The notes under the pieces: model-generated
Databases searched by the model: none
Told to the model about the DNA's origin: nothing
Seen by the model: only the letters and a program-made list of their open reading frames with translations
Origin: Acidobacteriota bacterium
Lineage (GTDB): Bacteria > Acidobacteriota > Vicinamibacteria > Vicinamibacterales > 2-12-FULL-66-21
Assembly: GCA_003223835.1 (NCBI GenBank)
Contig: QHWR01000028.1
Span: forward strand, 1-32,536
Length of the DNA stretch: 32,536 nucleotides
Reading direction: 5' to 3'
Shown here: positions 1,061-21,404 of the stretch, piece by piece
How positions within the stretch are numbered: position 1 is the stretch's first letter
How the letters are laid out: each line of letters begins with the position of its first letter
Made by a program: the position numbers and the translations under genes

Positions 1061-4000
1061 ATGTCCGTGCAGCCGGCCGAGACCGCCACCTCCATGACCG
1101 CGTCCGGGTATGCCGACGGTCTTGGCCGGCGTGTGCTCGCGTTCGACCGCGAGAGCGGCGAAATCCTCGAGCGGCTGTGCCTGCGGCCCGAACTCATCGC
1201 CTTCGAGCAGGTCCTCCAGCAGACGATCGCCCGGTTCGCGACGCTCGAGGACGAGCGCTTCGCGCGCCCGCGCCGTCTCGAATCGGATGACGACGGCGGG
1301 TTGAGCGTCGTGTCCGACTTCGTCGGCGGACTGCGCATGGCGGACGCCCTCGACATCGCCGCCGACGCGACGCTGGCCCCGGGACTCGACGCGGCGCTCG
1401 GCTTGCTCCTCGAGTTGTTGCCCGCGCTCGGCGGCCTCCATTCGGCCGCCGGCATCGCGCACGGCGCGATCGGTCCCGGCCGCATTCTGTTCACGCCCGA
1501 AGGAACCGTCGCCATCCTCGATTCGGTTTACGCGGCGCCGCTCGAACGGCTGCATTTCACGTCGCGGCGCCTGTGGGAGGAATTCGGGCTGGCGGTGCGC
1601 GAGGGCGCGCCGGCGCGATTCGACGTCGCCGCCGACCTGATGCAGACCGCGCTCGCCGCGAGCGCGCTCATGATCGGACGGCCGCTCGCCGATCGCCCGA
1701 CGGGCTCGAGCCTCTCGACGCTGCGGCGCGAGATTTCCGACGTCGCGCAGATTCGCGGGACGAGCGCCTTTGCGACCGGCGTCGGCCGGTTGTTCGATCG
1801 ACTGCTGGGGGCGGCCGCGGCCTCGCCGTACGGATCGGCCGACGAAGCCGTGCTCGACCTTCGCCAACTGCTCCGGCGCGAGCTCGGCATCGACGCGTGC
1901 CGCGCGGCGCTCAAGGAATTCCTCACGCAGGTCGAGGCCGCGGGCAACGAGCTGGCGGAGGCGGAGTTCGCCCAGCTGCAGCGCCTCGGCGCGGCGCAGG
2001 CAGAGAGCCAGCGCACCAAGGCCACGCGCTTCGCCGCGGAGCTCGCCGAGGCGGCGCGCCGCGAAGCCGAGCGTCTCGAGACGGAGCGTTTCGAACGCGA
2101 CGGCCGTGAGGCGGAACGGCGCGAAACCGAACGCCGCGGGCGGCTCGAAGCCGAGCGGCTCGAACGGGAACGCGTCGAAGCGGAACGCCGCGAGCACGAG
2201 CGCCTTGAAGCGCTGCGTCTCGAACAGGCCCGGCTCGAAGCGGAACGGAAGGAACGCGAGCGCCTCGAAGCGCTGCGGCGCGAACAGGAACGCGTCGAAG
2301 CGGAACGCCGCGAACGCGAACGCCTCGAGGCCGAGCGCAAGGAGCGCGAGCGGCTCGAAGCGCTGCGGCGCGAACAGGAGCGGCTCGAGGCCGAGCGGAA
2401 GGAGCGCGAACGGCTCGAGGCGGAGCGCCGCGAGCGCGAACGTCTCGAGGCCGAGAAGAAGGAGCGCGAGCGCGTCGAGGCGAAGCGGCGCGAGCAGGAG
2501 CGCCTGGACGCGGAACGCCGCGAACGCGAACGGGTCGAGGCGGAGCGCCGGGAGCGCGAACGCAAAGAAGCGGAGCAGCGCGAGCGCGCGCGTCTCGAAG
2601 CGGAGCGCCGCGAAGCCGAACGCCGCGAACGCGAGCAGATCGAGGCGGAACGAAAGGAGCGCGAGCGGCTCGAAGCCGAGCAGCGCGAAGCCGAGCGCCG
2701 CGAGCGTGAACGCCTCGAGACGGACCGGAAGGAACGCGACAAGGCCGAGGCCGAACGCCGCGAGCGCGCGCGCCTCGAGATCGAGCGCGAGCGCGAGCGC
2801 CTGGCAGCGGAACGCCGCGAACGCGAGCGCCAGGAAGCGGACCGCGCCGCCGCGGCCAGGCGCGCCGCCGAACGCGACGACGACGAGCAGGAGGATTCGG
2901 ATCCCGCGGAGTCCCAGAAAGCCGGCGGCCGGCGCAAGCGGGATCGCTCGGCGAGAACGCGGAAGGATCGTCTTCGTTCGAACGCGCAGCCCGGCAGCCC
3001 CACGCCTCCCGCACCCGCACAGCCGGCGCAGCGTTCGAGCTGGCTGATTCCGCCGGAGCGCGCGGCGAAGTTCGAGCCGCCGGTTGAAGACGCGCCACGT
3101 CCGGCTGCGAGTCCGACCGCGTTCGTGCCGCCCGCGCCCGCCGCGCCGCCGGCGCCGTCCTGGGCCGCCACGCCGCCGCAGACGTACGTGCCGGCGCCGG
3201 ATCCGGCGCGCGCGATGACGCCGCCGTACGGCGTGCCACGCCCGCCGGCGCCGATCGCCCCGTCGGTCCCGTCGGTTGCCGTCGAACCTGCCGGCGGGTC
3301 GATCTACGGCACGCCGTCGTTCGCCCCGGCGCCGCCGATCACCCCCATCCGTCTGAAGCCGGACGCCCTCATGGCGCCGGCGCCGATTCGACTGAGGTCG
3401 GATCCGATCGCTCCGGCGCCGCAGCCCGCCCGGCCGCGCCAGGAGCGGGCCGCGCGCGATCCGTATCCGAGCCATCCGAGCCTGTTCAACGACGAGGCTG
3501 CGAGATTAGAGGAGACTCCGCGTCTGCCGTGGAAGTGGGCCGCGGTCGCAGCGGTCGTGCTCACCGTTGGCATCGCCGCTTCGCGCTGGCTGACGCCGGA
3601 ACACGAGGCGGACGCCGCGCCGCTCAAGAAAGCCGCGCCTGTGTCGGCTCCCGCCGCGCCGACAAAGTCGGCCGCCAGCGGAACGACCGGGGAGATCGCC
3701 ATCACGACCGAGCCTGAAGGCGTTCGCGTCCTCGTCGATGGCCGCGAAGCGGGCACGTCCCCGGTGACGGTGCCCGGCCTCGCCCCCGGCCGCCATGTCG
3801 TCACGATCTACGGTGCCGCCGGCGCGGTAAAGCGGACCGTCCGCGTCGAGGGCGGCAAGGTCGCGACCGTAGACGTGCCGGTCTACTCCGGCTGGGTCGC
3901 CATCTCCTCTCCCATCGTCCTGGAAGTGTCCGAAAAGGGACGGACGCTCGGAAGCACGGAGCAGGACCGCATCCTGCTCGGCCCGGGCCATCATGACCTG

Positions 4001-4240
4001 ACGCTGGTCAACAAGGATTTGGGCTACTCGGCCAGCATGCAGGTCGAAATCGAGGGCGGAGAGGTCAAGCCGATCGCGCTGGATCCGCGCGGCGGCGTGA
4101 ACCTCAACGCGATCCCGTGGGCGGAGGTGTTCGTTGACGGGAAGAAGGTGGGCGAGACCCCCATCGCCAACCTCCAGCTGACGCTGGGGGTCCGCGAAAT
4201 CGTCTTCAAGAACCCCCAGTACGGCGAGCGCAGACGGTGA
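1061..4240 (+). CDS. pseudokinase / coiled-coil / PEGA-domain membrane protein, C-terminus frameshifted
   Basis: This 1059-residue protein has four parts. Residues 1-290 resemble a protein kinase C-lobe: [10 protein letters not shown] (134-143) sits where kinases have HRDLKPxNIL, so the catalytic Asp and the Asn are lost, while the Asp of DFG survives (D154). Residues about 300-620 are an almost uninterrupted charged coiled coil of [14 protein letters not shown] type. A Pro-rich stretch follows (about 660-815), then one membrane helix (about 824-843). Two PEGA-type beta repeats close the protein (about 877-942 and 1011-1059). The kinase-like part should be cytoplasmic and the PEGA part periplasmic. 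The last PEGA repeat stops early at TGA 4238-4240; one extra base near 4229-4233 would restore the usual ending and run to TAG 4285-4287. The start is uncertain: ATG 1061 or ATG 1094. Probably a structural or signalling scaffold rather than an enzyme. Confidence 0.8.
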
Positions 4241-4509: not shown

Positions 4510-4677
4510 ATGTGGAACTGGATCTGCTGCTACGTCACCGGCCACGACTACAGCGTCTGCTGCGAGCAGGGCTCGATGTTCTTGCGCTGCCTGGTCTGCG
4601 GACGCCGTTCTCAGGGATGGGTGGTTCACCACTCGCACCACGGCCACGCCGTCGCGGCTCACGTCGATCGGTCCTAG
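4510..4677 (+). CDS. small Cys/His-rich zinc-ribbon-like protein, 55 aa
   Basis: ATG 4510 has TAGGTG 5 bases upstream, which is why I prefer it to an ATG at 4468. The 55-residue product has five cysteines: a CC pair after WNWI, a second CC pair in SVCCEQG, and a CxxC knuckle in LRCLVCGRRSQGW. A conserved-looking GHDY motif and a His-rich tail (HHSHHGH) add possible ligands. This GHDY...LRCxxCG..S.GW layout resembles a family of very small acidobacterial proteins of unknown function that I know only from general pattern; no function can be assigned. Metal binding is an inference from the CxxC and the histidines. It stands alone between an intergenic inverted repeat and the rhodanese-like gene. 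Confidence 0.7.
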   Translation: MWNWICCYVTGHDYSVCCEQGSMFLRCLVCGRRSQGWVVHHSHHGHAVAAHVDRS

Positions 4678-4707: not shown

Positions 4708-5103
4708 ATGACAATACCGTCGATGACGGTGCCGCGGATCTCGCGAGAGGAGCTGAAACAGCGGCTTGACGCCGCGCCCGCCGCTTCGTCCCCCGTCGTC
4801 ATCATCGACGTTCGATTGAAGTATCCCTACGAACACAGCACCGTGACCCTGCCCGGCGCGCTCCGGATGGGGCCCGGACATCTCGATTCCAGTCGCCTGC
4901 CGCGCGACCGCGACATCGTCCTCTACGACTCGGATCCCGAGGAGCTGGTCAGCTCGCGCGTCGCGCAGGAGCTGCTGCGGCAGGGATATCGCGTCTCCGT
5001 CCTCGCCGGCGGCATCGGCGACTGGGTCGCGGCGAAGTTTCCCACCGACAGCAAGCCGGCGCCGCAGGCGTCCGCCCCCGCGCCCGGCTCCCTGAAGGGG
5101 TGA
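4708..5103 (+). CDS. rhodanese-like domain protein lacking the active-site Cys
   Basis: The 131-residue product is one rhodanese fold: VVIIDVRLKYPYEHSTVTLPGA (conserved DVR and the PGA turn), DIVLYDSDPEE, and LAGGIGDW at the C-terminal helix. Rhodaneses normally carry the persulfide-forming Cys right after the VxxY strand; here that position is Asp (D74), and no other Cys exists in the protein. It should therefore not catalyse sulfur transfer and may bind or regulate instead. ATG 4708 and ATG 4723 are both possible starts; neither has a clear ribosome site. Its TGA overlaps the GTG of the PHP gene (GTGA at 5100-5103), so the two are translationally coupled and probably act together. Confidence 0.82.
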   Translation: MTIPSMTVPRISREELKQRLDAAPAASSPVVIIDVRLKYPYEHSTVTLPGALRMGPGHLDSSRLPRDRDIVLYDSDPEELVSSRVAQELLRQGYRVSVLAGGIGDWVAAKFPTDSKPAPQASAPAPGSLKG

Positions 5104-6326
5104 GGACCGCCCCGTTCACGCTCGGGCGCGCGTGGGATCTCCTCGAATCCCTGTTGCCGTTGTTCGCTTCGTGCCCGGAGCTGGACGGCGTCGAGCCTGC
5201 CGGTGACGTCCGGCGTTTCGAGGCGCTCGTCTCGGCGCTGGTGATCGTCGCGCGCGCCGCGGACCCCGAACGAGCGATCGATGCGCTCGCGCGACAGCGC
5301 GAACTGACGGATGTGGTGGAGCGAACGGCGCGGCGGCTCGTCGTGCGCTTCCGCCTCGCGCAAGTGGACGTGCGCGTCGCGCCGCGCGACGAATTCGGGA
5401 CCGTGCTGTTCACCGCAACCGGCACCGCCGCGCACGTGTCCGCCGTCCGGCAGCGAACGACGCCGGGGTTCGCGGCAACCGAGCCGGACGTCTACCGTCA
5501 GGCGGGACTGCCCTTCATTCCGCCGGAGATCCGCGCGGGAACGGACGAGATCGAACTGGCCCGTCAGGGACGCGTGCCGGCGCTCGTCGCGCGCGAGGAC
5601 ATCCGGGGCGACCTCCATATGCACACGACGTTCAGCGACGGGCGCGATTCGCTGACGGAGATGGTCACCGCATACGCCACGCTGGGGTACGAATACATCG
5701 CGATCACGGATCATTCCGTCGGCGCCAGCGCATCGCGGACGGTGACGATCGATCAACTCGCGCGACAGCGCGACGAGATCGAGCGTCTGCGCGAGCAGTT
5801 TCCGTCGCTCGCGATTCTGCACGGGATCGAGGCGGACATCCTGCCGGACGGCCGGCTCGACTTTCCCGACGCGGTGCTCGCGGGGCTGGACATCGTGCTG
5901 GCGTCGCTGCACGAGCGCGACGGCCAGTCGGGGGCGCGGCTCACGGACCGCTGTGTCGCCGCGATCCGGCATCCGCTCGTCACCGTCATCACGCATCCGT
6001 CCAACCAGCTCGTCGGACAACGCGAGGGCTACGACCTGGATTATCCGCGGCTCTATGCGGCCGCCGCGGAAACAGGAACGGCGCTCGAAATCGACGGCGC
6101 GCCGGGGCATCTGGACCTCGACGGCGAGCACGCCCGCGAGGCAGTGGCCGCGGGCGTCACCGTCAGCATCGACAGCGACTGCCATCGCGCGCGTTCCCTC
6201 GAGCGGCAGATGTGGCTCGGGGTCGGCACGGCGCGGCGCGGCTGGGTGGAGCCCCGGCACGTCCTCAATACCCGCCCGATGGCCGAGGTGCGCGCGTTCA
6301 TTGACGCCAAGTGCGGTCAGGGGTAA
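5100..6326 (+). CDS. PHP-domain phosphoesterase, PolX-like with degenerate polymerase domain
   Basis: The 408-residue protein aligns with the C-terminal two thirds of the DNA polymerase X encoded at 19686-21404. The PHP domain (about 168-400) keeps the metal motifs: GDLHMHTTFSDG, YIAITDHS, ILHGIEADILPDG, LASLHE, ITHPSNQ, ALEIDG and DSDCHR. It also ends with the same GWVxxxxVLNTRP signature. The helix-hairpin-helix DNA-binding domain is absent. The nucleotidyltransferase segment is eroded: where PolX has GSLRRG...GDLD, this protein has AGDVRRFEALVSALVIV, so the metal-binding Asp pair is gone. It should be a phosphoesterase or nuclease without polymerase activity. The start is GTG 5100, overlapping the stop of the rhodanese-like gene. 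The substrate is unknown; histidinol-phosphatase-like activity is an alternative, but similarity to PolX is closer. Confidence 0.85.
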   Translation: MRTAPFTLGRAWDLLESLLPLFASCPELDGVEPAGDVRRFEALVSALVIVARAADPERAIDALARQRELTDVVERTARRLVVRFRLAQVDVRVAPRDEFGTVLFTATGTAAHVSAVRQRTTPGFAATEPDVYRQAGLPFIPPEIRAGTDEIELARQGRVPALVAREDIRGDLHMHTTFSDGRDSLTEMVTAYATLGYEYIAITDHSVGASASRTVTIDQLARQRDEIERLREQFPSLAILHGIEADILPDGRLDFPDAVLAGLDIVLASLHERDGQSGARLTDRCVAAIRHPLVTVITHPSNQLVGQREGYDLDYPRLYAAAAETGTALEIDGAPGHLDLDGEHAREAVAAGVTVSIDSDCHRARSLERQMWLGVGTARRGWVEPRHVLNTRPMAEVRAFIDAKCGQG

Positions 6327-6437: not shown

Positions 6438-7085
6438 ATGAAACCGTTTCTCGCCGCGCTCATGTTCGCGACGCTGGTTCCGGCGCAAACGCCGGCCGCC
6501 CAGGACGTCGCCCGCGCGCTGCAGCGCAAATACGATCAGGTCCATTCGTTCACCGCCGACTTCGTGCACCACTACGAGGGAGGCGTCCTCCGGAAGAAGC
6601 TGACGGAACGCGGCACGGTGCAGGTGAAGAAACCGGGCCGGATGCGCTGGGAGTACAAGGTCCCCGAAGAAAAACTCTTCGTGTCCGACGGCCACAAGAT
6701 CTATTCGTACGTGCCCGCGGACAAACAGGTCATCGTCAGCAACGTGCCGGGTGACGATCAGGCCACCACGGCGGTGTTGTTCCTGGCCGGCAAGGGCAAC
6801 CTCACGCGCGATTTCACCGCGTCGTTCACGAGCGGCGGCGACGCGAAAACCTGGGCGCTGAAACTCGAGCCCAAAACCCCCCAGCGCGAGTACGACTGGC
6901 TCGTGATCGTCGTCGACCGCGATTCGATGCAGATTCGCGCCCTGACGGCGGCCGACAACGAGGGCACCCGCTCGACATTCCAGTTCTCGAACCTCCGCGA
7001 AAACGTGGACGTCCCCGACAAGCAATTCGTGTTCAAGATTCCGCGAGGGGCCGATGTCATCACGTCAGGCTCGTCGATACCGTAG
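6438..7085 (+). CDS. lolA: LolA-like outer-membrane lipoprotein carrier
   Basis: The product has 215 residues, close to the family's usual length. An N-terminal signal peptide (MKPFLAALMFATLVPAQ) predicts export to the periplasm. The fold signature is visible: KYDQVHSFTADFVHHYEGG near residue 32, the GTVQVKKPGRMRWEYKVPEEKLFVSDGHKIYSYVP stretch typical of LolA, and DNEGTRSTFQFSNLREN near the C-terminus. LolA family proteins shuttle lipoproteins from the inner-membrane LolCDE complex to the outer membrane. The downstream gene, a lipoprotein secretin, overlaps it by 32 bases, which suggests that this carrier serves, or was recruited for, that lipoprotein. A dedicated LolA-like paralogue cannot be excluded. 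Confidence 0.85.
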   Translation: MKPFLAALMFATLVPAQTPAAQDVARALQRKYDQVHSFTADFVHHYEGGVLRKKLTERGTVQVKKPGRMRWEYKVPEEKLFVSDGHKIYSYVPADKQVIVSNVPGDDQATTAVLFLAGKGNLTRDFTASFTSGGDAKTWALKLEPKTPQREYDWLVIVVDRDSMQIRALTAADNEGTRSTFQFSNLRENVDVPDKQFVFKIPRGADVITSGSSIP

Positions 7086-8865
7086 CGGAGCCGCCGGAAC
7101 GGCCGCGGCCGTCCTCGTGGCTCTTCTCGCAGGCTGCGCCACAACCGGGGCCGTACGCGCCGGCCGGCGCGCCGAACAGGCGCAGAACTACGACCTTGCC
7201 GTCGTGGAATACACGAAGGCGGTGCGCGCGCAGCCCGACAACGTTGACGCGCGGGCGGCGCTCGAACGCGCGAAACTGCGCGCGGCGCAGGTCCATACCG
7301 CGAGCGGACGCCGCTTCGCCGCGCAGGGGCGCTACGAAGACGCGGTCGTCGAGTTCCAGCTCGCGTCCGAGCTGAACCCGACGGACGCGCTGGTGGACGC
7401 CGCGCTGCGCGACGCACGCCAGCGGCTGCGGACGAAGCTCGCCGTCACGCGCAACGGGCGCACCGATCTCGAGAACCTGATCGATCGCACGCGCGACCTG
7501 CCGCCGCCGGGGCTCGACCTCCCGGACCACACGAAGCTGCCGTCGTCGCTGGCGTTCAGCAATGCGAGCAGCAAGCTCGTGTTCATCTCGATCGCGAAGT
7601 TCGCCGACCTGAACGTCGTCTTCGACCCGGCGTTCCGCGAGCAGCCCGTGTCGATCGACCTGCGGAACATCACGCTCGAGGACGCGCTGGCGTCACTCAC
7701 CGCGAGCACTCACACGTTCTACCGGGTCACGGCCCAACGCACGATCACCATCGTGCCCGACACGCCGGCGAAGCGGCGAGAGTACGAAGAGTCCGTCGTC
7801 CGCACGTTCTATCTGAGCAACGCAGATCTGAAGGAAGTCATCGACCTCCTCCGTGTGGTGGTTGATATCCGTCAGATTTCGGCGATTACGGCGACGAACG
7901 CGATCTCCATCAAAGACACGCCGGAACGCATCGTGGCGGCGGCACGATTGATCAACGCAATCGACAAGGCACGGCCCGAAGTCGTCATCGAGGTCGAGCT
8001 GCTCGAGGTCAACCGGTCGCGGCTGCGCGAGTATGGGCTGGGGCTTGCGTCGCCGGGTTCCGACGGCATCAGCGGCGGGGCCGCGGCGAACGTGACCACG
8101 CTGCAGAATCTGAAGAATCTCACGGCCGCCGACGTCCTCGTCTCGGGAGTTCCGGCGCTGTACTACAAGCTGCTCAAGAACGACGCGTCCACGCGAACGC
8201 TTGCGAATCCGCAGCTTCGAACGGCGGAAGGGATCACGGCGATCGCGAGGTTCGGTCAACAGGTGCCGGTGCCGGTGACGACCTTTGCTCCGCTGGCGAC
8301 GGGTGGCGTCAACCAGCAGCCGATCACGTCCTTTTCGTACAGGGACATCGGCGTCAACATCGACATCACGCCGCGCACGCACCACAACGACGACGTCACG
8401 CTGGCGCTGAAGGTCAGCCTGTCGAACATTTCAGGGACGGGATTCGGCGACCTCCCGACGTTTGGCAACCGCGAGATCGCGACGACGATCCGTCTCAAGG
8501 ATGGCGAGACGAACATGCTCGCCGGACTCATCCGCGACGCGCTGATCGGCCGGCTCTTCGCGAGCAATCACAAGGAGCGCGAGCAGACCGACATCATCCT
8601 GACCCTGACGCCGCACATCGTTCGCGTGCTCGACGTCAACGAAGCGGACCTGCGGCCGTTCCGGCTGGGACGCGACACGGGGTCGCCGGCGGCGGAGCCG
8701 CCGACGCCGCCTGGTCCGCCGCGCGAGGAACCGCCGGGACCGGGAACGGGCGCACCGCCGGCGGCTCAGCCCGCGTTCCCGCAGCCGCTCGAGGGAAAAC
8801 TGCCCGGCGTGGCGATTCCGACGCCTCCGCCTCCGCCCAAGAAGGGAGGCGGCGGCGGGTCGTAG
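7054..8865 (+). CDS. TPR-containing lipoprotein secretin (GspD/PilQ family)
   Basis: Residues 1-28 form a lipoprotein signal ending in the lipobox LLAGC (Cys 28). TPR-like helices follow (about 35-130: RAEQAQNYDLAVVEYTKAV, then GRYEDAVVEFQLASELNP). A secretin N-domain (about 160-230) precedes a NolW-type module (about 240-305) and the secretin core (about 310-525), recognised by YRDIGVNIDITPRTH, REIATTIRLKDGETNMLAGL and TDIILTLTPHIVR. The tail (530-603) is rich in Pro and Gly and ends GGGGGS. Secretins form outer-membrane rings for type II secretion or type IV pili. Here the TPR and the lipid anchor are part of the same chain, which may replace a separate pilotin. ATG 7054 has GAGGGG just upstream and overlaps lolA. 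No other secretion or pilus genes are in the window. Confidence 0.88.
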   Translation: MSSRQARRYRSGAAGTAAAVLVALLAGCATTGAVRAGRRAEQAQNYDLAVVEYTKAVRAQPDNVDARAALERAKLRAAQVHTASGRRFAAQGRYEDAVVEFQLASELNPTDALVDAALRDARQRLRTKLAVTRNGRTDLENLIDRTRDLPPPGLDLPDHTKLPSSLAFSNASSKLVFISIAKFADLNVVFDPAFREQPVSIDLRNITLEDALASLTASTHTFYRVTAQRTITIVPDTPAKRREYEESVVRTFYLSNADLKEVIDLLRVVVDIRQISAITATNAISIKDTPERIVAAARLINAIDKARPEVVIEVELLEVNRSRLREYGLGLASPGSDGISGGAAANVTTLQNLKNLTAADVLVSGVPALYYKLLKNDASTRTLANPQLRTAEGITAIARFGQQVPVPVTTFAPLATGGVNQQPITSFSYRDIGVNIDITPRTHHNDDVTLALKVSLSNISGTGFGDLPTFGNREIATTIRLKDGETNMLAGLIRDALIGRLFASNHKEREQTDIILTLTPHIVRVLDVNEADLRPFRLGRDTGSPAAEPPTPPGPPREEPPGPGTGAPPAAQPAFPQPLEGKLPGVAIPTPPPPPKKGGGGGS

Positions 8866-11214: not shown

Positions 11215-12471
11215 CTACGGAACCCGTTCGACCTGGGCCCCGAGACCGCGGAGCCGATCGACGAGCGACGCGTACCCGCGCTCCACCGTTTCGAGCGGCG
11301 CGATGCGGGTTTCTCCTTCGGCGGCGAGCGCCGCCGCGATGAGCGCCATGCCGGACCGGAGATCGCGGCTGTCGAGCGACCGGCCTTTCAGCTTCGTCGG
11401 GCCGCTCACGATGATGCGATGCGGATCGCACAGGAACAAATCGGCGCGCATCGCGCTGAGCTGCTCCAGCGCGAACAGACGCAGTTCGTACAGCCAGTCG
11501 TGGACGAGCGTCCGGCCGTCCGCCTGGGTCGCCAGCACGGTGACGAGACTCACCATGTCGCTCGGAAAGCCGGGCCACAGGCTCGTCGTGATCCGGCGCG
11601 TGGCGGTCAGCTGCGACGGTTCGACGGTGAATCGGTTGTCTTCGTACGCACACCGAACGCCCATCTTCCGCAGCGGCGCCGCGATCACTTCGATATCGAG
11701 CGCGCGCGCGCCGGTCACCTCGATCTCGCCACCCGTGATCGCCGCGACCACGCCCCAGCTTCCCGCTTCGATGTAGTCGCCGCGCAGCCGGTGGCACGCG
11801 CCGCCGAGCCGAGGCGGCGGCTCGACGCCGATCGTCGTCGTTCCCTCGCCTTCGATCGCGACGCCCATCCGCCGCAGGAACTCGCACAATTCGACCACGT
11901 GCGGTTCCATCGCGGCGTGACGGATCTCCGTACGGCCGCGCGCGGCAGCAGCGGCGAGCAGCGCCGTTTCCGTTCCCGTCACCGACGCCTCGTCGAGATA
12001 GATCGAGGTGCCGTGCAACCCGCCGCGTGCCTCGAGCGCATGCCCCGGCTCGTCGAGCGCGGTTGCGCCCATCGCGTGCAGCGCCTGGAGGTGCGTCGCG
12101 ATCGTGCGGCGCGCGGGAAAATCTCCGCCGGGGGGCGCAAGCCGCGCCGAGCCGTAACGCGCGAGAAGCGGGCCGAGCAACAGCACCGAGCCGCGAAGCT
12201 TGCCGACGAGCACGGGATCGGGACGATCGCCCGAGATCCGTTCGCAGACGACGCGGACGGTCGCCGTCCCGCGCCCTTCGACGGAGGCACCGAGATCCTC
12301 CAGCAGATCGATCAGCACCTCGACGTCGCGGATGCGGGGCACGTTCGTGATCTCGCACGGCCGGTCGGTCAGCAGGCACGCGGCGAGGAGCGGCAGCGCC
12401 GAGTTCTTGTTCCCCTCGACGCTCACGCGGCCCGACAGCCGCCGCCCTCCTTCAATTCGCAGTGTGGCCAT
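11215..12471 (-). CDS. murA: UDP-N-acetylglucosamine 1-carboxyvinyltransferase with Cys-to-Asp active site
   Basis: MurA transfers enolpyruvate from PEP to UDP-GlcNAc, the first committed step of peptidoglycan synthesis, in the cytoplasm. The 418-residue length is normal. Visible active-site residues are K22 and N23 (EGNKNSALPLLAA), R122 and H127 (numbered here), PGFPSDM for the Asp that takes the C3 proton, and DLRSGMAL with the PEP-binding Arg. The loop reads PPGGDFPARRTIATH: Asp 117 replaces the Cys (C115 in E. coli) that fosfomycin alkylates. Asp at this position is known from mycobacterial and chlamydial MurA, which remain active but are fosfomycin-insensitive. The start codon lies inside the end of murB (20-base overlap). 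Intrinsic fosfomycin resistance is a reasonable inference. Confidence 0.93.
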   Translation of the reverse strand: MATLRIEGGRRLSGRVSVEGNKNSALPLLAACLLTDRPCEITNVPRIRDVEVLIDLLEDLGASVEGRGTATVRVVCERISGDRPDPVLVGKLRGSVLLLGPLLARYGSARLAPPGGDFPARRTIATHLQALHAMGATALDEPGHALEARGGLHGTSIYLDEASVTGTETALLAAAAARGRTEIRHAAMEPHVVELCEFLRRMGVAIEGEGTTTIGVEPPPRLGGACHRLRGDYIEAGSWGVVAAITGGEIEVTGARALDIEVIAAPLRKMGVRCAYEDNRFTVEPSQLTATRRITTSLWPGFPSDMVSLVTVLATQADGRTLVHDWLYELRLFALEQLSAMRADLFLCDPHRIIVSGPTKLKGRSLDSRDLRSGMALIAAALAAEGETRIAPLETVERGYASLVDRLRGLGAQVERVP

Positions 12472-13354
12472 CGTCGAATCCCAGAAAGACGATTTCCTCG
12501 CGCAGCTCGACGCCGAAGCGCGCGCGCACGCCGTCCTTGCAGCGCTGAATCAGCCGGCGCACGTCGGTCGCGGTGGCGCCCCCTTCGTTGACGATGAAGT
12601 TCGCGTGGGTCATCGACACGCGCGCGGCGCCTTCGCGCGCGCCCTTGAGCCCCGCGCGATCGACGAGCGCGCCCGCCGACGCGGGGATGCCGTCCGGAAT
12701 CCGATCGCGGGACGGATCCGGATTCTGAAAAATGCAGCCGGCGCTCGGCGACTCGAGCGGCTGCGTGCGCTTGCGGTACGCGAGCGATTCCCGCGCGACC
12801 GCGCGCAGCGCCGCCGCGTCCCCGCGCCCGACGCGGAAATCGGCCGACAGCACGGCCTCGACCGATAGGACTTCGCCCCTCTCGCTCGCCAGTTCGGCCT
12901 GCACGACCAGCTCGCCGATCAGGCGTCCGCGAAAATGCGCGTTGCCGAAGATGGCGCCCCCGACGGTGCCAGGCGTGCCCGCCCACATCTCGAGCCCCGC
13001 GCACCCGTGCGCGATCGTCCAGCGGACGAGCCCGTTGATCGTGACGCCCGCATCGGCGCGAATGCGATCGACGCCGAGTTGTCGCACATCGCCGCCGTGC
13101 ACGCGAATCACGACGCCGCGGACGCCGCGGTCCGAGACGAGGACATTGGAGCCGCCGCCAAGCAGCGTCACCGGGACCCCCGCGTCGCGCGCGATTTCGA
13201 GCGCGCGTCGAACGTCGTCGGCGCGATGCGCGAGGACGAGCCAGTCGGCGGTCCCGCCGAGCTTGAACGTCGTGAACGGCGCGAGCGGCGCGTCACGCGC
13301 GACCCGATCGTCGCCGAGCGCACGTTTCAGCCGGACGGCGAAGTCGTCGCGCAT
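12452..13354 (-). CDS. murB: UDP-N-acetylenolpyruvoylglucosamine reductase
   Basis: MurB reduces the enolpyruvyl product of MurA with NADPH and FAD to give UDP-MurNAc. I place the start at ATG 13354 (300 residues), preceded by GAGTGAG; a longer frame begins at 13462 but would translate repeat-rich intergenic DNA. FAD-binding motifs are clear: FTTFKLGGTADWLV, VTLLGGGSNVLVSD and WAGTPGTVGGAIFGNA. The catalytic segment reads SAGCIFQNP, with Cys 207 at the position of the proton-donating Ser of E. coli MurB; Cys occurs there in some MurB lineages. The C-terminal GAARVSMTHANFIVNEGGAT contains the catalytic Glu region. The length and lack of the extra domain fit the short type II class. It is upstream of and overlaps murA. 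Confidence 0.93.
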   Translation of the reverse strand: MRDDFAVRLKRALGDDRVARDAPLAPFTTFKLGGTADWLVLAHRADDVRRALEIARDAGVPVTLLGGGSNVLVSDRGVRGVVIRVHGGDVRQLGVDRIRADAGVTINGLVRWTIAHGCAGLEMWAGTPGTVGGAIFGNAHFRGRLIGELVVQAELASERGEVLSVEAVLSADFRVGRGDAAALRAVARESLAYRKRTQPLESPSAGCIFQNPDPSRDRIPDGIPASAGALVDRAGLKGAREGAARVSMTHANFIVNEGGATATDVRRLIQRCKDGVRARFGVELREEIVFLGFDDGHTAN

Positions 13355-13363
13355 CTCACTCAG

Positions 13364-13470
13364 CCCGGGGGCTTCGCCCCGCGGACCCCCTGCACGCCCC
13401 CTCGCGGGGACCCCGACCCCGCTCCGGGTCGTGGCTCGCTTGCTTCGCTCGCTCGCTCGCATTGCCGACT
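13364..13470. repeat. GC-rich intergenic element with hairpin and GCTCG repeats
   Basis: Between pxpC and murB lies a short hairpin, GGGGC-TTC-GCCCC (13368-13380), followed by runs of CCCC/GGGG and a GCTCG-rich tract ending in CGCTCGCTCGCTCGC (about 13430-13462). A related tract is found between rimM and trmD at 29671-29732 and a shorter one near 19650-19680. This looks like a dispersed intergenic repeat inserted in an otherwise gapless operon. There is no T-run, so it is not an obvious intrinsic terminator. Confidence 0.5.
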
Positions 13471-13474
13471 CTTC

Positions 13475-14413
13475 TCATCCGGCCACCGGACCGGCATCGC
13501 CCGCGAGCGACGCCACACGTTCGCGAAGCGCCTCGAGCGCTTCGTCGCGCGCGCAGGCGATGAACTCGATCGAGTCGCCGGGCGCGAGCTGACCGGCGAG
13601 CGGCAGATCGGCCGTGATCGCCGTCGCGATGACGGCGTAGCCGCCGGTCGTCTGACGATCCGCCATCAACAGAATCGCCTGCCCTGAAGACGGCACCTGG
13701 ATCGATCCAATCGGCGTCGCCTCGGAGAGAATGTCGGCGCCGGAGACGTGCGGCAGCGCCGGCCCGTCCAGGCGATAGCCCATGCGGTTGGATTGCGGCG
13801 TCACGAGAAACCGCGATCCGGTCAGCAAGGTCCACGCCCGATCCGTGAAGCGCGCGCGATGGGGCGCGGGCAGCACCCGGATGCGCGCATGACCGTCGGG
13901 CAGCGGCAGCGGCGCGCCCACGCGCGGCGTGCCGGCCGCGCGCGCGCCGATCGTGACACGATCGCCGGCGGTCAGTTGACGGCCGCCGAACGGTCCCATC
14001 CGGCTGACGAGGTGCGTGGCGCGGCTGCCGAACGTCGCGGGGACGTCGATTCCGCCGGCAAAGGCGAGCGTCGCCCGCGCCCCGCGACGCCGCGCGCCGA
14101 AGCGCAGTCGCGCGCCGGCCGGCAGGACGAATGCACGGTCGCTCGACACGACCTGCCCGTCAATCGTGAGATCGAAGGCAGCGCCCGCGACAGCGCACTC
14201 GACGTCCGCGTCGCTCTGAAGCTCCGGTCCGATCAACGTCACTTCGAGCGCAGCCGCCGACGCGTCATTGCCCGCGAGCTGGTTTGCGAGCTGATGAGAG
14301 TACCAATCCATCGGGCCGGCGACGGGCACGCCGAGTCCCTGATAGCCGCGGCGTCCCCGGTCCTGGACGGTCGTCAATATGCCTGGGCGGACGACGCTGA
14401 TCGTTGCGCTCAC
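13475..14413 (-). CDS. pxpC: 5-oxoprolinase subunit C (biotin-dependent carboxyltransferase-like, KipA family)
   Basis: The 312-residue protein has the family opening ISVVRPGILTTVQDRGRRGYQGLGVPVAGPMDWYSH and the later blocks FLVTPQSNRMGYRLDGPAL and ILMADRQTTGGYAVIATAI, all typical of PxpC/KipA. With PxpA and PxpB, this subunit hydrolyses 5-oxo-L-proline (pyroglutamate) to glutamate using ATP. I prefer GTG 14413, whose GTGA overlaps the pxpB stop by four bases; GTG 14425 would add four residues. The family name carboxyltransferase is historical and does not imply biotin use. No pxpA (LamB/YcsF family) gene is in the window, so the enzyme would need a distant third subunit. Confidence 0.9.
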   Translation of the reverse strand: MSATISVVRPGILTTVQDRGRRGYQGLGVPVAGPMDWYSHQLANQLAGNDASAAALEVTLIGPELQSDADVECAVAGAAFDLTIDGQVVSSDRAFVLPAGARLRFGARRRGARATLAFAGGIDVPATFGSRATHLVSRMGPFGGRQLTAGDRVTIGARAAGTPRVGAPLPLPDGHARIRVLPAPHRARFTDRAWTLLTGSRFLVTPQSNRMGYRLDGPALPHVSGADILSEATPIGSIQVPSSGQAILLMADRQTTGGYAVIATAITADLPLAGQLAPGDSIEFIACARDEALEALRERVASLAGDAGPVAG

Positions 14414-15117
14414 GCCGCGCTCCACGCGCTGGTCCGATGGAACTCACCCTCCGAGATCCGGCGGAATCGCACGCGATCGCCGGGCCGCAGCAGAAACGGC
14501 TCGGCGCGCGCCGGGTCGTACGGTTTCACCGGCGTCCGCCCGATGATGTGCCAGCCGCCGGGCGTCTCGGAAGGATAGACACCGGTCTGGCCCGCGGCGG
14601 TCGCGACCGCGCCGGCCGGCACCCTGAGACGCGGCGTCGCGCGCCGTGGCGCCGCGATCGAAGGATCCACGGCCGCCATGTAGGCGAAGCCGGGCACGAA
14701 GCCCACCATGAACACGCGGTACTCGCGCGCGAGGTGACGCGCGATCACCTCCTCCACGCCGCACCGCGCAAACGCGGCGACGTCCGGCAGGTCGGGCCCG
14801 AATGCGCCGTCGTAACAAACGGGCAGCTCCACCAGATGGCCGGCGATTCCACCGCCCGCCGGGCGCGCGCGGGCCATCTCCTCGAGCATGCGCGGCACGC
14901 GCCCCGCATCATCGGCCAGCGGGTCCGCGTAGATCATGACGGTGCGGTAACCGACGACGATGTCCGTCAGGCCCGGGATGCGCGCGGCTTCGACCCGCGC
15001 GGCCAGCTCGATCGCGCGGGCATTCACCTCGGCGTCGATCCGTTCGGGCAGCTCGATGAGCCACGCCGAGTCGCCGGCGGCGACGACGCGCGGGTCGATC
15101 GAATCATCCGGCGGCAC
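14410..15117 (-). CDS. pxpB: 5-oxoprolinase subunit B (KipI family)
   Basis: The 235-residue protein matches the PxpB/KipI family over its full length: an N-terminal AGDSAWLIELPERID domain, LPVCYDGAFGPDLPDVA, then the diagnostic FMVGFVPGFAYMAAVD and VPAGAVATAAGQTGVYPSETPGGWHIIGRTP blocks. Together with PxpC it forms the core of ATP-dependent 5-oxoprolinase; in Bacillus the homologue also inhibits the KinA sporulation kinase, which is unlikely to apply here. The start is GTG 15117, which lies within the end of mpl (14-base overlap), and its own end overlaps pxpC. This tight packing ties it to the peptidoglycan recycling genes. Confidence 0.92.
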   Translation of the reverse strand: MPPDDSIDPRVVAAGDSAWLIELPERIDAEVNARAIELAARVEAARIPGLTDIVVGYRTVMIYADPLADDAGRVPRMLEEMARARPAGGGIAGHLVELPVCYDGAFGPDLPDVAAFARCGVEEVIARHLAREYRVFMVGFVPGFAYMAAVDPSIAAPRRATPRLRVPAGAVATAAGQTGVYPSETPGGWHIIGRTPVKPYDPARAEPFLLRPGDRVRFRRISEGEFHRTSAWSAA

Positions 15118-16507
15118 GGGTCTGGAGCGCCGTCAGCAGTTTCTCGTGGATGCCGTCGAACCCGCCGTTCGACATGATGACGACGAGGTCGCCCGCGCGC
15201 GCCTCGCGCGCGACCGACGCGACGATGTCGTCGACCCGCGGCACGTACCGGGCGTCCTGTCCGCGGGCGCGCAGATCGGCAATCAGTTGCTCGATCGACA
15301 AGCGCTGCTCGTCGGGAAGATTCGCGCGAAACACGGCCGGCAGGATCACGTGGTCCGCCGCGCTGAACGCCTTCGCGAATTCGTCCTGGAACACTCTCCG
15401 GCACGAGGTCGCGGAGCGCGGTTCGAACACGGCCCAGATGGGCCGATCCGGATACGCGGACCGCACGCCCGCCAGCGTCTCGGCAATCGCGGTCGGGTGA
15501 TGCGCGAAGTCGTCGTAAATGGCCACGCCCGCGACGGTCCCCCGGAGCTGCATCCGGCGGCGCACGCCTTTGAATCGGCGGAACGCCTCCGCGATCGTGT
15601 CGGGGTTGAGCCCGACCGCGGACCCCACGGCGATCGCGGCGAGCGCATTGCGCACGTTGTACGCCCCGAGCAGCGGGACCTCGAAAAGGCCGATCGGCGT
15701 GCCGCCCCGGCGGACCCCGAAATGCGTGACCCCGGCGTCGATCTTCAGATCGTGGCCCTGCCAGTCCACGCCGTCGCTCAATCCGAACGTCTCGACCTTG
15801 CACCGCGCCGTCTGAGCGAGCGCACGCGCCTCGCGGTCATCGCCGCCGAGCAACAGGAGGCCGCGGCGCGGGATCAGATTCACGAGACGCCGGAACGCCA
15901 CGCGGATGCTTTCGAGATCCGCGTAGATATCGGCGTGGTCGAACTCGATGTTGCTCACCACGGCGACGTCCGGCAGGTACTTCAGGAACTTGGCCGTCTT
16001 GTCGAAAAACGCGCTGTCGTACTCGTCCCCTTCCAGCACGAAGTCGCGGCCGCCGCCGATCCGATAACTCCCCGCGAAATTCTCGGCAATGCCGCCGATG
16101 AACACGCTCGGGTCGAGCTCCGCGTGCGTCAACACCCACCCCGCCAGCGACGTCGTGGTCGTCTTGCCGTGCGTCCCGGCGATCACGATCGAGCGGGCGC
16201 CCCAGAGAAAATGATCGCGCACCGCTTCCGGCAGCGAGCAATAGCGGATCTTCCGATCCAGCACCTCTTCCAGTTCGGGGTTTCCGCGCGAGATCGCATT
16301 GCCGACGACGACGAGATCGAGATCCGCCGTGATGTGCTGCGGATCGTAACCTTGCAGGGTGGCGATCTGCTGCTCGGCGAGGAAGTCGCTCATCGGCGGA
16401 TAGACGTTCTGGTCCGATCCCCGGACGTCATAGCCGCGCCGTTTGAGCATCGCGGCGAGCGTCGCCATGGCGGTGCCGCAGATGCCGATCAGATGGATGC
16501 GTTTCAT
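15104..16507 (-). CDS. mpl: UDP-MurNAc:L-Ala-gamma-D-Glu-meso-DAP ligase (murein peptide ligase)
   Basis: Mpl attaches recovered L-Ala-gamma-D-Glu-meso-DAP tripeptide to UDP-MurNAc, the recycling shortcut in cytoplasmic peptidoglycan synthesis. The 467-residue length is typical. It opens with KRIHLIGICGTAMATLA (MurC/Mpl-type GxxGxG) and SDQNVYPPMSDFL, has the ATP loop GTHGKTTTT (111-119), and VLEGDEYDSAFFDK, the Mpl-type segment that differs from MurC. Further ligase blocks are SNIEFDHADIY, LLGAYNVRNALAA, YDDFAHHPTAIAETL and VFEPRSATS. The FDK and SCRR features favour Mpl over MurC. It starts 6 bases after ldcA ends and overlaps pxpB. It occupies the position before murB that murC holds in many cell-wall clusters. 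Confidence 0.93.
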   Translation of the reverse strand: MKRIHLIGICGTAMATLAAMLKRRGYDVRGSDQNVYPPMSDFLAEQQIATLQGYDPQHITADLDLVVVGNAISRGNPELEEVLDRKIRYCSLPEAVRDHFLWGARSIVIAGTHGKTTTTSLAGWVLTHAELDPSVFIGGIAENFAGSYRIGGGRDFVLEGDEYDSAFFDKTAKFLKYLPDVAVVSNIEFDHADIYADLESIRVAFRRLVNLIPRRGLLLLGGDDREARALAQTARCKVETFGLSDGVDWQGHDLKIDAGVTHFGVRRGGTPIGLFEVPLLGAYNVRNALAAIAVGSAVGLNPDTIAEAFRRFKGVRRRMQLRGTVAGVAIYDDFAHHPTAIAETLAGVRSAYPDRPIWAVFEPRSATSCRRVFQDEFAKAFSAADHVILPAVFRANLPDEQRLSIEQLIADLRARGQDARYVPRVDDIVASVAREARAGDLVVIMSNGGFDGIHEKLLTALQTRAAG

Positions 16508-16513
16508 GCGCGC

Positions 16514-17440
16514 TCAGCCGACGGCGGACTCTTCGATCACGAGCGCGGCGCGCGGCGTGGTGACGACGCGGGCCCTGACGCCGAACGGCAGCGTGAGCGC
16601 GGCGCCGTTCGTGTGGCCCGATGGAAGCCCGAAGAGCACCGGTCCGTGGAAGTCGGCAACCGCTTCGGCGACCACGTCGCGAGCGGACGGGCCGTCATCG
16701 CCCGGTTCGTCGCAGCGCGGCAGCTCGCCGAAGACGACCGCCGCGGCGCGGCCGAGCAGGCCCGCCAGTCGCAGCTGCATCAACATGCGGTCCAGCCGGT
16801 ACGGCCGCTCCCCCGCCTCGTCGATGAACAAGACGTATTCGAAGGGGGGATCGAACGCATACGGCGTCCCCAGCGACGCGAGGAGCTGCGTCAGCGTGCC
16901 GCCGAGGAGGATGCCGCGCGCGTCGCCGTCGCGGATCGGCTCCAGGCCGTCGTGCGTGATGACGCCGGCCGCCTCGGGACGCGTGAGGCAGCGCAGGAAC
17001 GTGTCGCGATCGTAGCCGGCCTCGCCGCGCGCGAGCCGCCCCTCCAGCATCGGCCCATGGAACGAGACGATGCCGCAGTGGATGTTCAGCCAGGCGAGCA
17101 GCGACGTGTTGTCGCTGTAGCCGATGAAGGCCTTCGGCGTGCGACGGACTTCGTCGGGATCGAGTTGCGGGAGGAGCTGAACGCTGCCGTAGCCGCCGCG
17201 CGCGGCGATCAGCGCCGCGATCGACGCGTCATTCCACGCGCGCCGGAACGCCGCGGCCCTGATCTCCGCGGTGCCCGCGACGTAGCCGTGCCGGTGAAAG
17301 ACGGACGGATCGAAGACGGGCTCGAACCCGAGCCGCCGGATTTCCTCGACGCCGGCGTCGAACGCCTCCCGGGCGAATGGACTGGCGGGCGCGACGACGG
17401 CGATGCGATCGCCCGGCCGGAGCGCGCGCGGCTTGAGCAT
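16514..17440 (-). CDS. ldcA: LD-carboxypeptidase (peptidase S66, muramoyltetrapeptide carboxypeptidase)
   Basis: LdcA removes the terminal D-Ala from recycled tetrapeptides, giving the tripeptide used by Mpl. The 308-residue product begins LRPGDRIAVVAPASPF, as usual for S66. The triad is visible: Ser 109 in FIGYSDNTSLL, Glu 208 in LFIDEAGERPYRLDRML and His 276 in GLPSGHTNGA. The ARGGYGSVQLLPQLD segment is also characteristic. No signal peptide is seen, in keeping with the cytoplasmic enzyme. It starts 2 bases after nagZ and ends 6 bases before mpl, so substrate flow and gene order agree. Confidence 0.93.
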   Translation of the reverse strand: MLKPRALRPGDRIAVVAPASPFAREAFDAGVEEIRRLGFEPVFDPSVFHRHGYVAGTAEIRAAAFRRAWNDASIAALIAARGGYGSVQLLPQLDPDEVRRTPKAFIGYSDNTSLLAWLNIHCGIVSFHGPMLEGRLARGEAGYDRDTFLRCLTRPEAAGVITHDGLEPIRDGDARGILLGGTLTQLLASLGTPYAFDPPFEYVLFIDEAGERPYRLDRMLMQLRLAGLLGRAAAVVFGELPRCDEPGDDGPSARDVVAEAVADFHGPVLFGLPSGHTNGAALTLPFGVRARVVTTPRAALVIEESAVG

Positions 17441-17442
17441 CG

Positions 17443-18472
17443 CTACGCGAACCTCGCCATTTCGGCGGCGATCGCCTGGTGCTCGTCACGTCCCAGGATC
17501 GTGTGGAGCGGCGCCGCCGGCCGCGCGGAGCGGGGCCGCGCGAGAAACCGCCCCTTGACGCGCCGCTGGCGCGCGACCGCCTCCTCGACGCGCTTGACCG
17601 GCAGACGGCCGGCCTCGACGGCGTGGATCAGCGTCTCGAGCGCGTCGACCTGCGCGTCCTGGTCGGGCGGACACATCAGGACCGCATCGCACCCGGCCGC
17701 GATGGCCAGCACCGTCGCCTCGCTGTGACCGTAACGGCCGCTGATCGCTTTCATCTCGAGATCGTCGCTGAGGACGAGGCCCTCGTAGCCGAGCGTCTTC
17801 CTGAGCAATCCGTCCACGATCGCAGCCGACAACGTCGCGGGACGCTCCTCGTCCAGCGCCGGGATCAGAATGTGCGCCGTCATGATCGCGGCGACGTCGG
17901 CGGCGATGGCGGCCTTGAACGGCACCAGCTCGACCGCGTCGAACCGATCGGGCGGATGCTCGATGACCGGCAGCTCGTGATGCGAGTCGGTCGTCGTGTC
18001 GCCATGACCGGGAAAGTGCTTGCCGCACGCCGCGATCCCTTCCGCCTGCAGGGTCCGGATGATCGCCGCGCCGAGCCGCGCGACGTCTTCCGCCCGATCC
18101 GCGAGCGCGCGGTCGCCGATCACGGGATTGCCCGGGTTCGTGCGCACGTCGAGCACCGGCGTGTAATCGAGAGAGATGCCGACCGCCTTCAGCTCCGCGG
18201 CCAGCGCGCGCGCGAACCGTTCGGCGAGCCGCTCGTCGCCGCTCCGGCCGAGCGTGATCATCGGCGGCCATTCCGTGAACGGCTTGCGGAGGCGGGCGAC
18301 AGGTCCTCCCTCCTGCCACCTGCTGCGGCTCGGCGACGTTGCGCGCGAAGAAGATCACGCCGCCGAGATCGAACGCCTTCGCGAGCCGCCGCAGGTCTTC
18401 GGGAATCGTGTGGCCCGCGAAGCCGGCGATCGCGAGCTGTCCCGCATGACGGCGGAAGTCCCTGAGCGACAC
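17443..18472 (-). pseudogene. nagZ: beta-N-acetylhexosaminidase NagZ (GH3), internal deletion and frameshift
   Basis: NagZ removes GlcNAc from GlcNAc-anhydroMurNAc peptides in cell-wall recycling. From GTG 18472 the frame reads VSLRDFRRHAGQLAIAGFAG...DLGGVIFFARNVAEPQQV and then becomes nonsense near 18315. The true continuation is in another frame: QEGGPVARLRKPFTEWPPMITLG, followed by GKHFPGHGDTTTDSHHELP (with the conserved acid-base loop), AIMTAHILIPALD and LVLSDDLEMKAI (nucleophile Asp), ending at 17443. Relatives have about 20 more residues between AEPQQV and DQEGG, so some 60 bases and the Asp of DQEGG are missing, and the length is 3n+1. Short CAG/GGAGG repeats sit at the junction. As read, no intact enzyme is made; the gene may be decaying or misassembled. 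Confidence 0.85.
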
Positions 18473-19685: not shown

Positions 19686-21404
19686 ATGGACAATCTCGCG
19701 ATTGCGCGCGTGCTCGGCGAGATTGCCGACCTGCTCGAGATCAAGGCGGAGAATCCATTCAAGATCCGCGCGTATCGCAACGCGGCCGACACCGTCGTCC
19801 ACGAGGCGCGGCGCGTGGCCGACATCCCGGCTGCCGAGCGTCTGGCGCTGCCCGGCATCGGCAAGGACATCGCCGCCAAGATCGGCGAGCTGGCCGAAAC
19901 CGGCACGCTCCGCTATCACCAGGAACTGCTCGAGGAATTCCCGCCGACCGTGCTCGACCTGCTGCACCTGCAGGGCGTCGGGCCGAAGACCGTGGCGCTC
20001 CTCTATCGCGGCCTCGGCATCCGCACGTTGCAGGACCTCGAGGACGCCGCGAAGAACGGCCGGCTCCGCGAGCTCAAAGGCATGGGAGCGAAGAAAGAGG
20101 CGCTCATCCTCAAGGCGCTCGAGGAGCGTCAACGGGTCGCCGGACGCCGGCTGATGGCCGAAGCGTACGATACGGCGGCCGCGCTCGTCGGCGAGCTGCG
20201 CGCGCACGCGCCCGGCGCCGAAATCCACATGGTCGGAAGCCTGCGCCGCGGCTGTGAGACGTGCGGGGACCTCGACGTCCTCGCGGCGGGGGCGCCCGCG
20301 TCCGTGATGGACGCGTTCACGGGCTACCGCCTCGTCGAGCGCGTGCTCGCGCACGGCGAGACGAAGTCGAGCGTGCTGCTCTTCGGCGGATTTCAGGCGG
20401 ACCTCCGACTCGTCCCGCGCGAGAGCCTCGGCGCCGCGCTCCAGTACTTCACGGGTTCGAAGACGCACAACATCGAGCTGCGCGACCGCGCGATTCGGCA
20501 CGGGCTCAAGCTGAACGAGTACGGCCTGTTTCGAGTCGAGGACGGAACCCGGATCGCCGGCGAAGACGAAGCGGCGCTTTACGAAGCGCTCGGGCTCGCC
20601 TTCGTCCCGCCGGAGCTGCGCGAGAACCGCGGCGAGATCGACGCGGCCATCGCCCACGCGCTGCCGCCGCTCGTGCGGCTGTCGGATCTTCAGGGCGATC
20701 TGCACATGCACACCACGGCGACCGACGGCCGCGCCGATGCGGAATCGATGGCGCGCGCGGCGCTGGCGGCGGGTTTACGCTACATCGCGATCACCGACCA
20801 CAGTCAGTCGCTCGCGATGGCGAACGGCCTCGACGAGACGCGCGCGCTCGAACACGCGCGCGCGGTCCGCAGCCTGAACGGCCGCCTCGAGGGCATGACG
20901 GTACTGGCGGGCATCGAGTGCGACATCCGGCCCGACGGGACGATGGATCTCGCCGACGACTGCCTCGCGGAGCTGGACCTCGTCGTCGCGTCCGTCCACT
21001 CGGCGTTCCATCAGGAAGAAGCGCAGATGACCGACCGGCTGCTCCGCGCCATCGACTGCCGGTGGGTGGACATCCTCGGCCATCCGACCGGACGGCTGAT
21101 CCTGAAGCGCGACGGCTACAAGGCGGATTTCGGGCGCGTCTTCGCCGCCGCCGCCCGCGCCGGCGTGGCGCTCGAGATCAACTGCCAGATCGACCGGCTC
21201 GATCTGAGCGACGTGCACGCGCGGCAGGCGCGCGACGCGGGCGCCCGGTTCGTCATCGGATCCGACGCGCACAGCCCGGCGGCGTTCGGCGGGCTGCGCT
21301 GGGGCGTGACCGTCGCCCGCCGCGCCTGGCTCACGCCGGCCGACATCCTCAACACGCGTCCGCTCGACGAATGCCTCGCCGGGCTGCGGCGTCATCGGAG
21401 GTGA
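19686..21404 (+). CDS. polX: DNA polymerase X family (polymerase beta-like plus PHP)
   Basis: Bacterial PolX fills short gaps during base excision repair; its PHP domain adds 3'-5' exonuclease and AP-endonuclease activities. The 572-residue length is standard. The order is an N-terminal 8-kDa/HhH region (ENPFKIRAYRNAADTV, LPGIGKDIAAKI, LQGVGPKTVALLY), a palm with GSLRRGCETCGDLDVL near 184 (the metal Asp pair) and FQADLRLV near 239 (third Asp), a thumb (ALQYFTGSKTHNIELR), and a PHP domain from about 335 (GDLHMHTTATDGR, IAITDHS, GIECDIRPDG, ASVHSAF, GHPTGR, EINCQ, GSDAHSP). All key residues are present, in contrast to the paralogue at 5100-6326. Its TGA overlaps the ATG of the next gene. Confidence 0.93.
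   Translation: MDNLAIARVLGEIADLLEIKAENPFKIRAYRNAADTVVHEARRVADIPAAERLALPGIGKDIAAKIGELAETGTLRYHQELLEEFPPTVLDLLHLQGVGPKTVALLYRGLGIRTLQDLEDAAKNGRLRELKGMGAKKEALILKALEERQRVAGRRLMAEAYDTAAALVGELRAHAPGAEIHMVGSLRRGCETCGDLDVLAAGAPASVMDAFTGYRLVERVLAHGETKSSVLLFGGFQADLRLVPRESLGAALQYFTGSKTHNIELRDRAIRHGLKLNEYGLFRVEDGTRIAGEDEAALYEALGLAFVPPELRENRGEIDAAIAHALPPLVRLSDLQGDLHMHTTATDGRADAESMARAALAAGLRYIAITDHSQSLAMANGLDETRALEHARAVRSLNGRLEGMTVLAGIECDIRPDGTMDLADDCLAELDLVVASVHSAFHQEEAQMTDRLLRAIDCRWVDILGHPTGRLILKRDGYKADFGRVFAAAARAGVALEINCQIDRLDLSDVHARQARDAGARFVIGSDAHSPAAFGGLRWGVTVARRAWLTPADILNTRPLDECLAGLRRHRR

Follow-up and report, generated by a model that had tools for sequence, protein, structure and literature searches.

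Do two neighbouring genes that have each lost a catalytic centre make up one system, or do they share no more than a place in the genome? The question is raised by a window of 32,536 nucleotides (that is, the whole stretch of DNA analysed), a contig of a 93%-complete genome from the order Vicinamibacterales (Acidobacteriota). In this window the open reading frame of a rhodanese shares four bases (GTGA) with that of a PolX-like protein, here called PolX-A; that the two genes overlap had been pointed out in an earlier note on the sequence. Our results suggest that the two genes probably represent two unrelated and old histories at one address, those of a polymerase-dead PHP nuclease and of a rhodanese module with Asp for Cys/Sec, and that they do not form a fixed pair. 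The features concerned are collected in Table 1.

Table 1. Positions in the window of the two overlapping genes, their altered sites, the constant neighbours and the full-length PolX
Feature	Position	Strand	Remarks
DxD rhodanese	4708..5103	+	131 aa; descends from the CxU (selenocysteine) rhodaneses of family NF041203
Asp-Ser-Asp codons (D74, S75, D76)	4927..4935	+	stand in place of Cys-x-Sec/Cys
PolX-A, noncanonical PolX	5100..6326	+	408 aa, GTG start; without HhH region, palm predicted to be dead, PHP domain intact
Ala46-Leu-Val48 of PolX-A	5235..5243	+	in place of the palm Asp-x-Asp when aligned with PolX-B and Thermus PolX
PHP domain and C-terminal part of PolX-A	5610..6323	+	nine-ligand metal site complete
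LolA	6438..7085	+	TIGR00547 134.5 bits, cut-off 112; constant downstream neighbour
GspD/PilQ-like secretin, adjoining LolA	7054..8865	+	Secretin 91 bits
PolX-B, full-length PolX, paralogue of PolX-A	19686..21404	+	NF006375 486 bits, cut-off 426; triad DDD

The upstream protein has a rhodanese domain, with a score of 35.5 bits against the Pfam Rhodanese model (cut-off 22.2), and its active-site loop reads VLYDSDPEE, with one Asp at the Cys position and another at the second redox position. A profile search of 162 genomes of the order recovered 75 clear orthologues (at least 145 bits) and a contig-edge fragment (G027), and the next matches scored at most 65 bits. Ser75 and Asp76 are found in all 75 orthologues and Asp74 in 74 of them, so that the loop begins without the Cys (or Sec) that an active sulfurtransferase needs; the sole orthologue with Cys at position 74 is G057 (locus L212; YCSDP, codon TGC). 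R36, K38, Y39, H43, S44 and R53 are also invariant in the 75 sequences, against a mean column identity of 62% in a sample of 22 rows. A previous set of 61 loci had been gathered with peptide patterns; its count of 62 Asp in 62 is not used as evidence because the patterns held the very residues under test, and the profile-based set is used instead. Among 396 genomes drawn from the phylum, all 16 matches of at least 159 bits came from this order, and the next match (88.9 bits) carries TGA. A search for plasmid copies returned one weak match only. In an AF2 model of moderate confidence (pLDDT 76.5) the DSD directly follows strand 69-73, where the active-site loop of a rhodanese begins. The model matches solved rhodaneses with Z up to 16.7, and the Foldseek and VIA-align lists show rhodaneses.

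Against the selenocysteine family model NF041203 the window protein scores 75.3 bits, below the cut-off of 115, and it has DSD instead of CxU or CxC, which places it outside the family as the model defines it. Twenty near relatives from outside the DSD clade were taken from the top of the profile match lists, 18 of them from outside the order and 2 from within; C-T-U with an in-frame TGA is present in 18 of the 20 and C-T-C in the other 2. After masking of positions 74 and 76, a tree groups the DSD proteins in a single clade (0.88), itself nested in a DSD+CxU clade (0.94) that is separate from eight ordinary rhodaneses. As judged by sequence, the rhodanese is a descendant of CxU selenocysteine rhodaneses in which both Cys and Sec were replaced by Asp, and the loop beside the site was remodelled to the invariant R36-x-K38-Y39 / H43-S44 pocket. 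SelB scores above its cut-off in the window's genome. Two more rhodaneses of the same genome, L015 on C144 and L020 on C378, carry a C-S-TGA motif whose TGA is in frame, and are probable selenoproteins. As far as the literature search shows, the DxD rhodanese looks like a so far undescribed, order-wide variant of a known family: the search found no description of a DxD rhodanese or of a Cys/Sec to Asp transition, and no paper in the open-licence literature searched joins 'Vicinamibacter' with 'rhodanese', an absence that is weak evidence.

The downstream protein matches the Pfam PHP model (36.7 bits), and the thumb model stays below its cut-off. It aligns to Thermus PolX (3b0x) from Thermus residue 160 on, so that the N-terminal HhH part is missing and the protein starts at the palm. 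VSALVIVARA stands where Thermus has VGDLDFLVAS; two palm Asp are thereby lost (A-V-D) and the third (QVDVRV) is retained. A gap against the Thermus protein follows the TGxAAH motif (a palm/fingers/thumb deletion), and the set of nine PHP ligands (HHDHEHHDH) is complete. Once G013 is set aside, 58 of the 162 genomes carry PolX-A. The 59 aligned hits, less G013 and two contig-edge fragments (G005 and G107), leave 56 for the triad count: none has the palm triad DDD, whereas the nine PHP ligands are complete in 55, the exception being G123, in which the match ends before the C-terminal part. The triad is present in 29 of 29 sequences of PolX-B and of a third PolX type. The hit in G013 (255 bits) was dropped as PolX-A since it has DDD, and it was assigned to this third type, which occurs in some genomes of the order (L272, L275, L276).

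PolX-A is monophyletic (support 0.94, in a tree without G005, G107, G013, G123 and G026 on the PolX-A side) and often lies on the same contig as a full PolX. An old duplication therefore fits its apparent origin as a paralogue of full PolX. In 18 genomes that have both paralogues, the mean pairwise identity of the palm is 32% in PolX-A versus 63% in PolX-B, and that of the PHP domain is 62% versus 65%; within the window's family the values are 41% versus 76% for the palm and 70% in both for PHP. This is the pattern of a duplicate that has abandoned DNA synthesis, with its PHP metal site under full constraint. The N-terminal region, whose length was judged by open reading frames with putative starts and by the similarity of the proteins to one another, comprises about 150 residues in G003, G006 and G009 and about 60 in G008, G010 and G011, and is absent in the window. 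HhH models gave no match in this region in any of the 10 longer PolX-A proteins scanned. The HhH/lyase region is thus degenerate and, in the window's family, has been deleted in steps. What the earlier note had read from the single sequence is borne out here: an Asp in place of the rhodanese Cys, a PolX-like protein lacking HhH domain and two palm Asp around a complete PHP site, and a complete PolX elsewhere in the window. Since the Asp recurs in nearly all orthologues, with Cys in one close orthologue only, and the triad is broken in 56 of 56 PolX-A, the loss of both centres is no accident of a single genome. The note had also attributed the pair to duplication, a proposal that fits PolX-A as an old duplicate of full PolX.

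The further proposal, that the two genes share a coupled function, is not supported by their distribution. Both genes are present in 27 of the 162 genomes, the rhodanese alone in 49, PolX-A alone in 31 and neither in 55, with absence of PolX-A judged by a score cut-off (E 1e-50) and neighbourhood, so that very divergent copies elsewhere may escape. The association is not above chance (odds ratio 0.98, Fisher p = 1.0, in a test that ignores kinship), and a two-gene rhodanese/PHP system, tried on joint presence and adjacency, was rejected. Whole families keep one gene alone: the rhodanese in f3, f9 and f14, PolX-A in f15 and, for the most part, in f12. In f12 and f15 the palm triad is just as broken where the rhodanese is missing. 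It is therefore very improbable that the two form one system in which the rhodanese, as a ligand-binding regulator, steers a PHP phosphoesterase, even though the two genes are directly adjacent in 26 loci, an in-frame GTGA overlap is possible in 5 of the 26 loci holding both genes, and the window shows the loss of both centres at once. The overlap had been called conserved, which these 5 loci do not bear out, and in most relatives the genes are not neighbours. Because family f2 has both genes in 17 of its 27 genomes and the overlap is allowed in those 5 loci, a local coupling in some lineages is possible, and in the window's genome the two may simply be cotranslated. That both genes are decaying pseudogenes can practically be dismissed: catalytic residues are lost and the N-terminus is shortened, but the frames are intact and conservation is sharp in 75 rhodanese and 56 PolX-A orthologues. 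No paper in the open-licence literature searched names both 'rhodanese' and 'PolX', and this absence too is weak evidence.

What the two genes have in common is their surroundings. LolA lies downstream of 70 of the 75 rhodanese loci and of 55 of the 58 PolX-A loci, and the eight loci without it are all, except that of G057, close to where a contig or the fetched stretch ends. The genome with Cys at position 74 is thus also one in which no LolA was recognised downstream. Among rhodanese-only loci, 35 of 49 reach lolA within 400 bases, and in many genomes LolA is separated from PolX-A (or the rhodanese) by a TMEM260-like glycosyltransferase. Both genes have LolA with the secretin as their constant neighbour, from which we infer that their shared address is the lolA-secretin neighbourhood. 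The order rhodanese - PolX-A - (TMEM260-like glycosyltransferase) - lolA - secretin is found whole or in part across Vicinamibacterales, and an ancestral order of this kind would have been thinned by separate losses.

Other genes recur around the locus. Of 108 loci compared (G013 counted twice), 39 have a threonine-synthase-like PALP gene upstream of PolX-A or the rhodanese. In several genomes of family f14 (including L217 and L219) such a PLP enzyme is immediately upstream of the rhodanese, and in L217 it stands beside a second, canonical threonine synthase; we take it as part of the chromosomal neighbourhood. In the window, a short Cys-rich ORF upstream of the rhodanese (4510-4677, + strand, 55 aa) looks zinc-ribbon-like by eye and gave no match in a Pfam scan; many relatives have a counterpart, 41-81% identical, ahead of PolX-A or the rhodanese. 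Farther upstream (1061-4240, + strand) a large protein has PEGA domains and a long Arg/Glu-rich repeat stretch. A run on the opposite strand (11215-18261, - strand) holds genes of cell-wall type (EPSP-synthase/MurA fold, MurB, Mur ligase, LD-carboxypeptidase S66 and glycosyl hydrolase 3) and a pair of carboxyltransferase-domain proteins, and MacB/FtsX and antisense ORFs are also present. The locus was also seen in records labelled Acidimicrobiia, Woeseiaceae and Bifidobacterium breve (L070, L093, L113), which are likely mislabelled or mixed MAGs.

If the genes are separate, each needs a role of its own. The strict residue constancy of the rhodanese argues for a job and against decay, and from its sequence the protein looks repurposed; it could no longer hold a persulfide or selenide on residues 74 and 76. 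Strict conservation of the pocket would also suit an enzyme, in which Asp74, or the DxD with H43, K38, S44 and R36, would form a metal-dependent or Asp-nucleophile site, chalcogen chemistry having given way to carboxylate chemistry. Such a site is, we presume, formally like that of HAD phosphatases. The constancy of the eight residues R36, K38, Y39, H43, S44, R53, S75 and D76, and nearly that of D74, against the mean identity given above favours an enzyme, as does the predicted position of DSD at the start of the active-site loop. The Cys at position 74 in G057 suggests, however, that Asp74 is dispensable as a nucleophile, and the published Asp-for-Cys rhodanese with a proposed role is a signalling or binding domain, at least in the accessible text on TROL (PMC12295754); retained enzymatic activity thus seems quite improbable to us. 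A broader version, in which an order-wide change from a Cys-Sec site to an invariant Asp-x-Asp pocket re-engineered the fold for carboxylate/metal chemistry or for cation/metabolite sensing, is speculative and, on balance, unlikely. By analogy, the rhodanese most likely binds a ligand or partner protein as an acidic module without catalytic activity, because two inactive rhodaneses serve as precedents: the portions of the literature at hand describe the rhodanese of TROL, a plant thylakoid protein, as inactive with Asp for the catalytic Cys and proposed to signal (PMC12295754), and that of TBC1D23 as inactive and acting in signalling or protein binding (PMC7274447).

For PolX-A the choice is between DNA and small substrates. 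Small phosphoesters are the substrates of some stand-alone PHP proteins, and this precedent, together with the loss of the DNA-binding HhH region in the window's lineage and the relaxed palm, could mean that PolX-A has left DNA altogether as a small-molecule phosphoesterase of the PHP superfamily. We consider this a serious but rather unlikely alternative: many PolX-A retain some of the palm/thumb as well as an N-terminal region, though a degenerate one, and the predicted structure (pLDDT 93.7) has its best match in Thermus PolX, ahead of YcdX or HisK. By analogy again, PolX-A is most likely a Mn2+-dependent 3'-end-processing nuclease/phosphoesterase in DNA repair, our best guess because the text available from Prostova et al. 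2022 (PMC9226535) reports that noncanonical PolX proteins, with altered palm triad, shortened palm/fingers and complete PHP site, have no polymerase activity and are exonucleases, expected to work in the 3'-5' direction with Mn2+. This polymerase-dead, nuclease-alive condition is noted in PMC12926913 too.

PolX-A would then be an example, spread through the order, of a polymerase paralogue retained for its PHP nuclease alone, and the canonical enzyme of the same genomes serves as an internal control. The rhodanese, a member of a selenocysteine lineage whose two reactive residues became Asp and were then frozen, raises the role of a rhodanese pocket after chalcogen chemistry. The locus also indicates that adjacency of two 'dead' genes can arise from a shared ancestral neighbourhood.

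Set against known systems, the rhodanese is nearest to NF041203 ('rhodanese_LYCAU'), the CxU selenoprotein that corresponds to rhodanese form 3 in the accessible part of PMC13188914. It has the same fold and the flanking motif Y-x-x-x-P-x-E-x-x-S, and this family is the closest in the tree and profile search, but the window protein differs in having Asp for both C and U and in the remodelled loop before them. With TROL it shares the Asp at the catalytic Cys position, whereas the TROL rhodanese is a lumenal domain of a plant membrane protein for which the part of PMC12295754 consulted reports a single substitution. On sequence grounds, PolX-A is known in kind, a noncanonical PolX found order-wide, since polymerase-dead exonucleases of this type are already published (PMC9226535, as far as the available text goes); within the open-licence literature, 'noncanonical PolX' together with 'Acidobacteri' occurs only in that paper, the absence elsewhere being weak evidence. 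As in the proteins described in that text, the palm triad is substituted, the PHP active site is full and the palm/fingers/thumb carry deletions; PolX-A is here a second paralogue beside a canonical PolX. What is unusual is that the N-terminal domain is lost completely: by the same partial source the 8 kDa domain is full-length in 95.3% of all PolX surveyed and a usual, though optional, feature of noncanonical PolX, unlike in the window. PolX-like proteins without a polymerase region, almost exclusively actinobacterial according to the portion of PMC12926913 available, resemble PolX-A as PolX relatives shrunk towards the PHP part, and differ from it in that PolX-A still has a relaxed palm.
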